Positions 57,711 to 61,852 of a DNA stretch of 64,000 nt are shown piece by piece. The translations under genes were made by a program, and so were the position numbers. The notes under the pieces are model-generated. The model searched no databases. It had not been told where the DNA came from and worked only from the letters and a program-made list of their open reading frames with translations. Positions within the stretch are counted from its first letter, which is position 1, and every line of letters begins with the position of its first letter. Origin of the DNA: Gemmatimonadaceae bacterium (GTDB lineage Bacteria; Gemmatimonadota; Gemmatimonadetes; Gemmatimonadales; Gemmatimonadaceae); contig DASXKV010000018.1 of the NCBI GenBank assembly GCA_036496605.1, positions 124,001 through 188,000 on the forward strand, in the 5' to 3' direction.

Positions 57711-60416
57711 CTAATCGGCTCGCAACGCAACGTTCGGATCGACACGCGTCGCCCGACTGGCTGGAACGAGACTCGCCAATACCGCCACTCCGAGCAGCGT
57801 CAGTGTCGCCAGGACATAGATCAGCGGATCCTTTGGCGAAACGCGATACAGGAGGGGCGCGATAAAGCGCCCGGCGACGAGCGCGATTGTCCCGCCGATG
57901 ACGATGCCGGCGATAGCGACGCGGAGTCCGCTACCGACGACGAGCCGCAGGACATCGCGGGCCTGCGCGCCAAGCGCGATTCGGACGCCGAGCTCGTGAC
58001 TTCGCTGCGTCACATTGTACGCGATGACGGAATACAATCCAACGGCAGCGAGCAGCAGAGCGAGTCCACCGAATAGAGCGAACATCGTTGCGCCGAGGCG
58101 CCACGGGCGCACGTTGGGCTCGAGGATTTTGGTCAGCGGCGTCACCGTTACGTACGAGACTCCCGGCATCACCCGCTGGAGCTCGCGCCTAACGGTGCCG
58201 ACCATGTCCGCGGCCTCGCCACGCGTCCGAACGAAGAGCCCATTTCCACCGTTGCCGGTCTGACTCACCGGTGCGTAGTACTGCAGCCCGGCGGGCTCCG
58301 TGAGGTTCCGATCGACGATGTCGGCAGCGACGCCGACGACGGTCGAGCAGGGCATCGTGTCGGCGCCGATGCGAATGCACTGGCCTAACGGTTCGGCTTT
58401 CAGGAAGGCCCTTCGCGCCATCGACTGGCTGACGACGATTACGCGCGGCGCGTTCTCCACGTCCGCGGCGGTGAACCCACGTCCGCGAATAATGCGCGTT
58501 CCCATCGTCGCGAAGTAGCTCGGCGAGACCGTGTTAAACAGAAAATCGCCGCGGATCGAGTCTTTCGCCTGGGTGAAGAGATCGTTGCTCCAACTCATCC
58601 AGAAGGGCACGGAAACTGTCAACGTGGCGTCCGCCACGCCCGGAAGGGCGTGCGCACGCTCGACGAGATCGCGGCGGAGAGCGAGCCCCGCGACGGAATC
58701 GAGATGCATCCCGCGCATCTCGATCGAGACGAAGAGTATGCGCGGCGTGTCGTAGCCGAAGTCGAGCTCGTGCACGTTGCGCAAGCTGCGCACGAAGAGT
58801 CCCGTACCGACGAGGAGTACCACGGAGAGCGCTCCTTGCACGACGAGGAGCACGGTCCGTGTCCGCGAACGATGGTACGTGCCTTCGCGCGCGCCGGCCT
58901 TGAGAGCCGCCGAGACGTCGGTGCGGCGGGCGAGGAGAGCGGGCGCGAGCCCGGTCAGCACGCCGACGCCGACCGCCGCAAGGCTCGTGAAGATGAGCAT
59001 TCGTGAATCAGCGAAGAGCGGCGGCCACTCGACGTCGGGGAGCATCGCCGAGCGCAGAATCGTCCCGCCCCACTGCGCGACGGCAAGGCCGGCGGCGGCA
59101 CCGAGGACGGCGAGCACCAGACTCTCGGTCAGGAGCTGAACGAGCAGGCGTCCCCGGCTCACGCCGAGTGCGACGCGGACCGCGATCTCACGTCGCCGCC
59201 GGAATGCTCGTGCAAGGAGAAGGTTGGCGACGTTCGCGCACGCGATGATCAACACGATCACCGAGACGCCGACGAGCCAGGTCGCGACTTTCGAATTCGC
59301 ACCCTGATTCGGTCCTCGCTCCTTGAGCACGGAGGCGACCACCGCCCGCGGTCGCGCAATGTCGATCGGCGTGTGCCGCTCCTGCGCGAGGTAGCTCCGC
59401 TTATATGCGTTGGTCAGATCGGCGTTGGCGGCGACCTCAGTCACCAACGGCTTCCGCCTGACGAGCATCTCCATCCAGGTCATGTTGTGCGACGTGTACC
59501 ACTTCGACGCGTCGACCATACCGGCGACGAAGATGTCGCTCACTCCGGTACTGATTGGAATGAATGCGACGGCGCCGACCGGATCCATGCCCACGAATCC
59601 GCGCGGCGCGACGCCCACGATCGTGTAGGTACGTCGGCCTAACGAGATCGACTTGCCGAGGACGTCGCGGCTGCCGCCGAAGCGGGTCTGCCAGTAGGTA
59701 TAGCCGAGCACGGCGACCGTCGCTCCCTCGGGCGTGTGGTCCTCCGACGGGCCGAAGTAGCGGCCGAGCGCTGGCGGGGCGTCGAAGAAGCGCCAGAAGG
59801 CCGCGCTCACCATGCTCACGCGCCGCTCGGCAGTCTCCTGCCCGGTGTCGACGGCGAGGTCACAGTAGAAGAACGCGGCGGTCTGCGAGAATGACGTCGT
59901 GTAGTTCGTGAGCTCCACGTAGCGCTTGTAGCTCATGTTCGGCGTGAGCTGCTCCACGCCATCGAAGCTGCGGCCGAGATAGACGACGTTCGTTTCCGTG
60001 GCCGCGGCGAGGAAGGGCGGTGGACGCAACAGCAGTCGGTCGATGATGCCGAACATCGTCGCGTTGGCGCCGACGCCGAGCGCGAGCGCAAGGACGACGA
60101 CGGCGGTGAATGACTTAGTCGCCCGCAGCCCGCGGACGGCGTAGCGGAGGTCTTGCAGGATCGCGCTCCACCATTCGGCGCGCCTCGCGTGCTGAGCCCG
60201 AGAGCGATCGATCGCCTCGAGGCGGGTCCGTGTGCGTTCGACGTCGCCAAAGCGGCGTTCTGCTTCGCGGTGCGCGTCGGACTCGCACATGCCACTGTCC
60301 ATGTAGTGCCTCACGGTCATGTCGAAGTGGAAACGCAGCTCGTCGTCGACGGCGCGCGCGACGCGGCGCGGGCCGAGGTCGATCCGGAACAGGCGACGAA
60401 TGCCGCGGGGTAGCAC
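57711..60416 (-). CDS. ADOP-family orphan ABC permease with prefix domain (ADOP5)
   Basis: 901 residues from GTG 60416, 6 bases after the padR stop; same length as ADOP3. The prefix domain reads VDDELRFHFDMTVRHYMDSG and DAHREAERRFGD. Membrane and FtsX marks are VLALALGVGANATMFGIIDR, LIIACANVANLLLARAFRRR and AVGLYSVIAYNVTQRSHELG, ending PASRATRVDPNVALRAD. No ATPase partner. Expected to be controlled by the preceding PadR protein. Confidence 0.9.
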   Translation of the reverse strand: MLPRGIRRLFRIDLGPRRVARAVDDELRFHFDMTVRHYMDSGMCESDAHREAERRFGDVERTRTRLEAIDRSRAQHARRAEWWSAILQDLRYAVRGLRATKSFTAVVVLALALGVGANATMFGIIDRLLLRPPPFLAAATETNVVYLGRSFDGVEQLTPNMSYKRYVELTNYTTSFSQTAAFFYCDLAVDTGQETAERRVSMVSAAFWRFFDAPPALGRYFGPSEDHTPEGATVAVLGYTYWQTRFGGSRDVLGKSISLGRRTYTIVGVAPRGFVGMDPVGAVAFIPISTGVSDIFVAGMVDASKWYTSHNMTWMEMLVRRKPLVTEVAANADLTNAYKRSYLAQERHTPIDIARPRAVVASVLKERGPNQGANSKVATWLVGVSVIVLIIACANVANLLLARAFRRRREIAVRVALGVSRGRLLVQLLTESLVLAVLGAAAGLAVAQWGGTILRSAMLPDVEWPPLFADSRMLIFTSLAAVGVGVLTGLAPALLARRTDVSAALKAGAREGTYHRSRTRTVLLVVQGALSVVLLVGTGLFVRSLRNVHELDFGYDTPRILFVSIEMRGMHLDSVAGLALRRDLVERAHALPGVADATLTVSVPFWMSWSNDLFTQAKDSIRGDFLFNTVSPSYFATMGTRIIRGRGFTAADVENAPRVIVVSQSMARRAFLKAEPLGQCIRIGADTMPCSTVVGVAADIVDRNLTEPAGLQYYAPVSQTGNGGNGLFVRTRGEAADMVGTVRRELQRVMPGVSYVTVTPLTKILEPNVRPWRLGATMFALFGGLALLLAAVGLYSVIAYNVTQRSHELGVRIALGAQARDVLRLVVGSGLRVAIAGIVIGGTIALVAGRFIAPLLYRVSPKDPLIYVLATLTLLGVAVLASLVPASRATRVDPNVALRAD

Positions 60417-60417
60417 G

Positions 60418-60437
60418 AGTGGCTAGTGGCTAGTGGC
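60418..60437. repeat. CTAGTGG tandem at the padR/ADOP5 junction
   Basis: GTGGCTAGTGGCTAGTGGCGG spans the padR stop codon (TAG) and the short spacer before the ADOP5 start. A degenerate relative of the CTAGGGG family. Confidence 0.4.
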
Positions 60438-60770
60438 GGGTGCGTGCGCGACCTGGAGCACCTTGAAGACCGCGCGCGCATAACGAGCAAAAACGTCGGT
60501 CTGGCTGCGCAATTGCTTCCGGCCGACGGCCGTGAGCTCGTAGTACTTGGCCTTGCGGTTGTTCTCGGATACACCCCAGTCGCTCGCGAGGAGACCGCGT
60601 TTTTCCATACGGTGGAGCGCGGTGTAGAGCGCACCTTCCTCGATCTGGAGATCGTCGTCGGTGGTGTCGCTGATCCAGCGAGCAACCGCATACCCGTGCA
60701 TCGGCCCCCAGGTGAGGGTTTTCAGGATGAGCAAGTCGAGGGTGCCCTGGAGGAGGTCGAGGTCGGCCAC
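60423..60770 (-). CDS. PadR-family transcriptional regulator
   Basis: 115 residues from GTG 60770, with AGGGG upstream; this start gives the same length as the other two PadR proteins. Motifs are LLQGTLDLLILKTLTWG, PMHGYAVARWI, IEEGALYTALHRMEKRGLL and KAKYYELTAVGRKQL. Precedes ADOP5 on the same strand and is expected to repress the pair. A frame extending to 60824 adds unconserved residues. Confidence 0.88.
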   Translation of the reverse strand: MADLDLLQGTLDLLILKTLTWGPMHGYAVARWISDTTDDDLQIEEGALYTALHRMEKRGLLASDWGVSENNRKAKYYELTAVGRKQLRSQTDVFARYARAVFKVLQVAHAPATSH

Positions 60771-61126
60771 GTTAACCCCTGAAGTGTTGAGGGGAACGAT
60801 GCGGACACGCACCTGCGGAGTCAAGTGCGGGGCGCGGCGAGAAGGGCGCGGCGAGAAGGGCGCGTCGAAGAGGGCGCGTCGAGAAGGGCGCGTCGAGAAG
60901 GGCGCGTCGAGAGGGGCGACAAACGACCGAGCTGTGAGCCTGCAGGGCCGAGATCTCAGCTGCCTGCTCGCAGCGCTTGGCTGGCGACTCGGTTGGTCAA
61001 CGCTCTCATCGACGCGCTCTCATCGACGCGCTCTCATCGACGCGCTCTCATCGACGCGCTCTCTTCGGCGCGCCGTCTTCGACGCGCCGTCTTCGACGCG
61101 CCCATTCGACGCGCCTTTTTCGCGCC
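60771..61126. repeat. Two inverted 14-bp minisatellites
   Basis: 356 bases without a supported gene. From about 60833 to 60918 a 14-base unit GGGCGCGTCGAGAA is repeated about six times with small changes. From about 61003 to 61125 a 14-base unit CGCGCTCTCATCGA, grading into CGCGCCGTCTTCGA, is repeated about nine times. The reverse complement of the first unit, rotated, is CGCGCCCTTCTCGA, so the arrays are inverted versions of one repeat around an 85-base spacer and could fold into a long imperfect hairpin. The right array touches the stop of the CPBP protease gene. Frames through the arrays encode only Arg/Glu/Gly repeats and are not genes. Confidence 0.85.
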
Positions 61127-61852
61127 TTACGTGCCCGCCTCCGCCTCTTCCGACTTCAGCCGCCCGCGCGCGCTTATAGCCGCCGTGACGTCGTAGACCG
61201 CGTGCACTCCCATCGCCACATATAACGTCCCCGTCGCCGCGACCACGGCTTGCATAACGAGGCCGATCGCGAAGACCCAGCCCATGCTCTTCGCGCCCTG
61301 CGGATAGTGCGCCACGGCAAACGCGGCCGCGCTGAGAAGAACAGCGACGATGAAACTCGCTGTCGCGGACGCGAGCAGGACGACGAGCACACCGCGGTAC
61401 GCGGTCTCCTCGGCGATCCCGGCGGCAAGGGAGACGACGAGCCAGAGCGCCCACTGTCGGGTCGTCTGCGGCAGCAGATGACGCATCCAGAGTGATCGCC
61501 GCTCGTCAGGCGTCCGAAGGTGCCACGACAAGGCCCCAACGCTGAGCAGCAACGTCAGAGCGCCGGCTGCGATAGCAATCGTCCCCAGCCTCAGTCCCGT
61601 CCACGACCAAAGCGCCATCCCTTCCGTCCGCGCGACGAAGAAGGCGAAAATGAAGAGCAGGAGCTGCACGAGAAGCGCTCGCGTCAGCAGATCCGAACGG
61701 CGAGGAGCCGCGCGTCCCCGGCCTCCCGCGATGATCGATCTGCTGCGCACCGCGGCGATCGGCATGAACACAAGCACCACGAGCACGAAAACGGCCGACT
61801 GCACGTCGAGCCGAAATGGCGTCAATGGCGGAAATCGAGAGCCGATGAACAT
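61127..61852 (-). CDS. CPBP-family intramembrane metalloprotease (CAAX protease-like)
   Basis: 241 residues with about seven hydrophobic segments. The CPBP motifs are in order: EETAYRG (Glu148, Glu149, Arg153), the His182 in FAVAHYPQG and the His217/Asp221 pair in GVHAVYD. Bacterial members process membrane proteins, serve in bacteriocin immunity, or are of unknown role. Followed downstream by the inverted minisatellite and padR. The start ATG 61852 is the first in the frame. Confidence 0.85.
   Translation of the reverse strand: MFIGSRFPPLTPFRLDVQSAVFVLVVLVFMPIAAVRSRSIIAGGRGRAAPRRSDLLTRALLVQLLLFIFAFFVARTEGMALWSWTGLRLGTIAIAAGALTLLLSVGALSWHLRTPDERRSLWMRHLLPQTTRQWALWLVVSLAAGIAEETAYRGVLVVLLASATASFIVAVLLSAAAFAVAHYPQGAKSMGWVFAIGLVMQAVVAATGTLYVAMGVHAVYDVTAAISARGRLKSEEAEAGT

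Follow-up and report, generated by a model that had tools for sequence, protein, structure and literature searches.

Inverted 14-bp minisatellites in a Gemmatimonadaceae genome as probable arms of a dispersed hairpin element linked to intervening-sequence proteins

The PF05635 family consists of the 23S rRNA intervening-sequence proteins (IVP), which are four-helix bundles. In the 23S rRNA intervening sequence (IVS) of Coxiella burnetii, an S23p open reading frame (ORF) lies between terminal inverted repeats with a 28-bp terminal stem, tandem heptameric repeats in variable number are located just upstream of the ORF, and transposition and mobility are named as hypotheses (PMC4990558). IVP genes have also been described in cas loci (PMC3936711; figure legend of PMC10910872). 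The locus analyzed here is part of a 64,000-nucleotide stretch (the window) of a Gemmatimonadaceae genome, and a comparison with the IVS shows likenesses as well as clear differences. As in the IVS, an IVP-family ORF can be found between terminal inverted repeats that make a long stem (PMC4990558), and the terminal inverted repeats of the window element form such a stem, but the internal IVP/S23p ORF is missing from the window element itself and present in a relative on contig C16. Unlike the IVS, the window element lies between protein genes and not inside a 23S rRNA gene, the arms are longer arrays, and gene-less copies exist. The IVP loci considered here were also not seen in 23S genes, as judged by a weak word test in which none of 80 loci (the best of at least 568) exactly matched any of ten words from 23S sequence.

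Other described systems share some of these features. Eukaryotic foldback transposons (FB, Galileo, and Tetris) likewise possess long terminal inverted repeats that are internally repetitive, whereas the element reported here is bacterial, about 290 bp in length, linked to IVP, and has no transposase found. RAYT is the transposase of the REP/REPIN systems, and we know of no link between IVP and the P6b stem of the Nostoc trnL intron. This stem resembles the arms in having seven-nucleotide repeat motifs with whole-unit indels but is situated inside a group I intron (PMC4476775), and REP/REPIN-RAYT systems also include gene-less palindromic repeats dispersed in bacterial genomes but differ in size and architecture (PMC3116915, PMC3733652). 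The BrickBuilt MITE of Porphyromonas gingivalis is, like the present element, dispersed, intergenic, bacterial, and provided with a minisatellite; its small inverted ends enclose a single 23-nt array (PMC4596501), whereas here a center is surrounded by two inverted arrays. The ribosomal IVS with heptameric repeats is already known, while the open-access literature among the matches listed contained no recognizable description of the wider non-ribosomal class, either as IVP genes that stand free between tandem arrays in inverted orientation or as gene-less satellites.

The window element and its fold

The window element is located between the end of one gene and the start of another, both on the minus strand: a CPBP (Rce1-like) protease gene (61127–61852; PF02517, E = 7.9e-18) and, downstream of the element in the reading direction, a padR regulator gene (60423–60782, exact start not fixed; PF03551, E = 2.3e-19). 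A MacB/FtsX permease gene (57711–60416, minus strand; PF12704 and PF02687), named "ADOP" by the earlier reader, completes the context. Between padR and the permease gene, at 60418–60437, there is a perfect 7-bp tandem repeat of AGTGGCT (2.9 copies), whose period is the commonest one at IVP loci.

The two 14-bp arrays in inverted orientation that the original prediction described are real, spanning 60830–60918 and 61001–61126. By TRF, the left array (60830–60918, plus strand) has a period of 14, 6.4 copies, and a 92% match, and the right array (61001–61114, minus strand) a period of 14, 8.2 copies, and a 90% match. Reading by core gives six units of the form GCGCG(T/G)CGAnnnnn in the left arm, with cores from 60832, and eight in the right arm, to which a degenerate outer unit is added that reaches 61126 and brings the arm directly against the CPBP stop codon (61127–61129). 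The arms had been taken for reverse complements of each other, which holds for the period of 14 and for the 9-base core GCGCGTCGA common to both, but not for the remaining five bases of the unit, where left and right arms have no variant in common (cosine 0.0). The sequence gradation noted along the right array was seen as well; its five-mers run, from outer to inner, as ATGGG, AGACG twice, AGAGA, and TGAGA four times, a blocky structure that is compatible with unit expansion. The interval between the arrays (60919–61000) had been read as about 85 unique bases and is instead an imperfect palindrome that resembles the centers of elements on C46, C58, C60 (copy C60b), and C35 (E = 4e-8 to 8e-5), and weakly that of a fifth on C67 (E = 0.012). 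An Rfam scan over the window returned no match at the gathering score, and no IVP frame was found in the window.

The very long imperfect hairpin that had been proposed was borne out by folding calculations, both for RNA of either strand and for DNA. The minimum free energies of the arms as RNA are -205.5 (plus strand) and -184.8 kcal/mol (minus strand), with z values of -10.2 and -8.0 against dinucleotide shuffles; none of 100 shuffles folded as well, and folding as DNA gave a z of -9.4. When the right arm was turned round in silico, the plus strand of the 289-base element went from -198.5 to -138.9 kcal/mol; a large share of the pairing is owed to the inverted orientation of the arms.

A dispersed family with convergent arms

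A genome scan for other 14-base units, as the original prediction had envisaged, found the unit GCGCGTCGAnnnnn (with its core recurring in steps of 14) as 225 exact adjacent pairs (81 + 144) in the 5.97-Mb genome, compared to none for a reversed-pattern control, and no exact adjacent pair of this family was found in 59 relatives. The unit is carried at about 26 places (24, plus the end of contig C54 and C63, the latter as matches only), some of which may be halves of one element, since contigs often end inside arrays. Thirteen contigs (C19, C32, C40, C45, C46, C48, C49, C50, C52, C54, C55, C58, and C60) have one end within about 10 bases of a 14-bp array, and assembled array lengths are therefore lower bounds. 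Ten places are two-armed, and all ten have the plus arm followed by the minus arm in a convergent layout. Five places are one-armed: at C3, C4, and C60a a single arm was detected with DNA present on both sides, and C50 and C54 end in a minus arm with no plus arm found further in. In these respects the family has the properties of a MITE or foldback element, its copies being scattered over unrelated sites and provided with terminal inverted repeats but not with a transposase gene.

In nine of the ten two-armed elements the center measures 59–112 bp and falls into one of two similarity classes, one of six members (C18, C35, C46, C58, C60b, and C67) and one of three (C19, C41, and C44). The tenth center, that of C16, is about 485 bp long and holds an IVP gene. 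Comparison of the centers found no clear similarity between the gene-less ones and the IVP-bearing C16 center, and so does not establish that the former arose by deletion from a copy with a gene. At the outer edges (n = 30), purine agreement is 0.93–1.00 at positions -1 to -6 and 0.50 at -7, and at most edges the array begins in one unit phase; the definition of a first unit partly conditions this phase test but does not force the agreement at -1 to -5. A target motif was sought at the same edges and rejected, as T at -7 (11 of 30) and TAG or TAA from -7 (9 of 30) are too weak for a target site. Arm-to-arm homogenization was likewise discarded as a rule, with a high cosine in only three of the ten elements (C16, C35, and C67) and p = 0.11 for same- versus different-element comparisons.

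Three sites (C67, C18, and C35) were compared with the congener G001, and absence of the element is clean at C67 only, where 45 bp separate the matched flanks in G001:C132 versus 518 bp in this genome, a result read from match coordinates, as the alignment of the site came out badly. The window locus in G001 carries a short one-sided GCGCGCGAG-type array and a heptamer repeat (the alignment being uncertain inside the gap), and the C35 site carries other short repeats. These two loci are not empty sites, and they suggest that one intergenic place may receive insertions more than once or stay occupied for a long time. No target duplication was found, the intergenic DNA of the congener being too diverged at the sites seen. 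Dispersal of the element across the genome is shown, and movement is suggested by one site, C67. The G001 regions that match the window and C35 sites, G001:C65 and G001:C185, have a similar heptamer repeat around CTATGGA, hinting that these may be common insertion places.

IVP genes between inverted flanks

The connection of this family to IVP was found at two places, C16 and C10, that carry the window unit together with an IVP gene. The C16 element encodes a PF05635 protein in its center and contains little besides this frame, and at C10 a second PF05635 gene adjoins a 16-unit array of the same 14-bp unit at the contig start. Eight of the 11 PF05635 genes in this genome lie between pairing flanks, scoring 51–262 compared to a maximum of 31 at 400 random control positions in the window; among the three lacking a two-sided signal, one is at a contig start and has an array on its open side. 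At seven of the eight passing loci, the gene is flanked on either side by a tandem array; the units vary from locus to locus and measure 7 bp (several sequences), 14 bp (two kinds), or 17 bp. One divergent clade (SH-aLRT 98) unites the four IVPs whose arrays have units of 14 or 17 bp. The remaining locus, L103 (G000:C8), has its IVP gene between 128-bp inverted repeats that are 97.7% identical and have no called tandem units, possibly young arms or arms of a different kind. Two genomes of the genus each have an IVP match with 17-bp arrays to its left and right, and the units of these look similar (L107, G000:C59, and L321, G002:C199).

In G001, the nearest relative of the C16 IVP (53% identity) is framed on either side by 14-bp arrays of the GCGCGCGAG type, and the same type of unit forms arrays on about nine other contigs. 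A noisier unit search of G001 with one mismatch allowed gave 33 matches versus 16 for the reversed pattern. In both genomes, then, the unit of the scattered arrays recurs beside an IVP gene of that genome.

PF05635 is present in 95 of 118 genomes of the family, often in several copies. Pairing flanks were found at 25 of 29 relatives' IVP loci (the best-scoring of many more matches), several of which pair with no called tandem units, and when flanks of different relatives' loci were combined crosswise (757 pairs) the 95th percentile of the score was 26, the 99th was 35, and the maximum was 250. A scan of bacteria and archaea located IVP loci in many phyla, and among the best 80 of at least 568 loci (five left out for short flanks) 49 of 75 have pairing flanks, with 26 below the threshold, versus 0 of 174 control positions in those loci. 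Against neighboring ORFs, a stricter control, 81 of 112 IVP loci passed among the matches listed compared to 4 of 73 ORFs, two of these four being themselves IVP genes (8 of 120 loci not counted). Loci L220 and L229 each contain two IVP genes about 1.3 kb apart, the second of which likewise lies between pairing flanks of its own.

A single period is found in both flanks of 79 of 120 IVP loci versus 12 of 360 controls, among the matches listed; it is 7 in 54 of these loci, 8 in 17, 14 in 5, 9 in 2, and 17 in 1. Mapping of the periods onto the tree of the proteins gives nine changes for periods 7 and 8, where the minimum of 300 label shuffles was 10. This tree holds 113 of 120 rows (seven were left out as their matched stretch translated with a stop), is open at 59 of 110 inner branches, and has a long branch, L107, in the 14/17-bp clade; with such weak resolution, the tie between period and lineage is suggestive only. 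Distantly related IVPs (L188, L194, and L213) likewise have period 14, so that period is no strict mark of lineage. Virus contigs gave no exact match to a three-unit pattern and contained 11 IVP loci, with inverted flanks scoring 32 or more in five of the eight tested (three were left out as the same match as a fourth).

Candidate explanations

Within the family, a blind search for inverted array pairs found 16 in the 686 kb taken from eight IVP-rich genomes and none in the 617 kb taken from eight IVP-free ones. At least one pair is present in six of the eight IVP-rich genomes; half of the 16 come from one genome, G018, and some, with periods of 11, 12, or 15, might represent repeats within coding sequence. 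No IVP frame underlies any of the 16. IVP genes are tied to inverted, mostly tandem-repeat flanks in many phyla, and inverted arrays are absent from the eight IVP-free relatives sampled.

The window arrays are the arms of a dispersed hairpin element that is probably mobile, one with all ten two-armed copies in convergent layout, related centers, a consistent outer edge, and one G001 site that lacks it. On balance, we favor a reading of the window feature as a MITE-like copy, without a gene, of a foldback element linked to IVP; inverted minisatellites make up its arms, and its center is short and palindromic. The solved structure 2gsc (XCC0516) matches an IVP of this genome (E = 3.4e-28), and this homologue is a homopentamer of four-helix bundles with a toroidal shape (PMC4990558); Avd, which is similar to PF05635, works with the reverse transcriptase of diversity-generating retroelements (PMC10053308). 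The arms, as a DNA hairpin or as double-stranded RNA, might be bound by an IVP oligomer, and gene-bearing elements would act in trans on gene-less ones; it is by this route that we infer IVP to mobilize the gene-less copies. The element would spread selfishly and be tolerated between genes, its arms presumably lengthening and shortening by unit slippage, with drift in unit and copy number while core pairing is kept. More tentatively, and with rather less confidence than for the window element, IVP proteins may be the gene of a widespread bacterial and archaeal foldback class in which inverted 7- to 17-bp arrays serve as the substrate; in this class, period would largely go with protein lineage, and satellites lacking the gene would be moved in trans with no known recombinase. 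Many free-standing test cases are at hand in the IVP genes of many phyla that lie between inverted, mostly tandem-repeat flanks and in the gene-less copies. The pattern offers a candidate substrate, the arms, together with testable rules, namely that gene-less copies need IVP and that period tends to follow protein lineage. One class of minisatellites found between genes would likewise be accounted for by IVP-linked elements, as would some of the breaks in the assembly, such as those at the thirteen contig ends in this genome.

Reverse transcriptase was considered as a required partner and rejected: RVT_1 is found in 17 of the 118 genomes compared to 95 for IVP, is absent from the eight sampled IVP-rich genomes, and has one locus in this genome (C38). 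IVP is not known to be a recombinase or nuclease and has no known catalytic role. This leaves room for a mobile foldback element moved by another enzyme, a transposase or recombinase, with the IVP gene as cargo and arrays that grow by slippage, and dispersal with fixed edges would suit any transposon. We consider this unlikely, if the most serious of the alternatives, as the C16 element holds little except the IVP frame, IVP and inverted flanks are paired across many phyla (among the matches listed), the occurrence of inverted arrays goes with that of IVP in the genomes sampled, and a reverse transcriptase is not required, the C38 locus notwithstanding. A structure useful to the host, with the hairpins acting as terminators, mRNA stabilizers, or insulators and spreading like BIME/REP sites, would agree with the great stability of the hairpin, the intergenic position of the window element, and the location of several elements near gene ends. 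It is nonetheless improbable given the mixed contexts (among nine elements with neighbors called by a crude ORF rule, some gene starts and some gene ends face an element), the variation of unit and center, and the absence of the element at the C67 site in the congener.

IVP-linked movement is also to be preferred to an account with no mobility at all, in which the inverted repeats beside IVP genes had a single origin and slippage in the stems multiplied short tandem units. The locus-specific unit sequences and the ready slippage of tandem units would be explained in this way, but related centers in gene-less copies at unrelated sites, and a C67 site without the element in the congener, make it very improbable. 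The original proposal of a single local array that was inverted, or of palindromic growth at the window site, accounts for the period of 14 and the core common to both arms but can be dismissed as highly unlikely, because two-armed elements with related centers exist elsewhere too (ten two-armed places in all among about 26 with the unit, nine of them with centers in the two related classes) and the window arms have no five-base variants in common.

Other repeats accompany these elements in the genome. A second 14-bp family, GCGCGCGAGnnnnn, is present on C15 (64.7–65.3 kb, and 80.8 kb to the end) and C49 (23.2–23.5 kb), and its copy at 64.7–65.3 kb of C15 encloses an IVP gene. On C45, C58, and C60 (L053, L071, and L061), 14-bp arrays directly adjoin 7-bp repeats of the AGAGGGT type. 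Units of this type characterize another IVP locus (L100 on C40), and the elements on C45, C58, and C60 seem to be nested or clustered.
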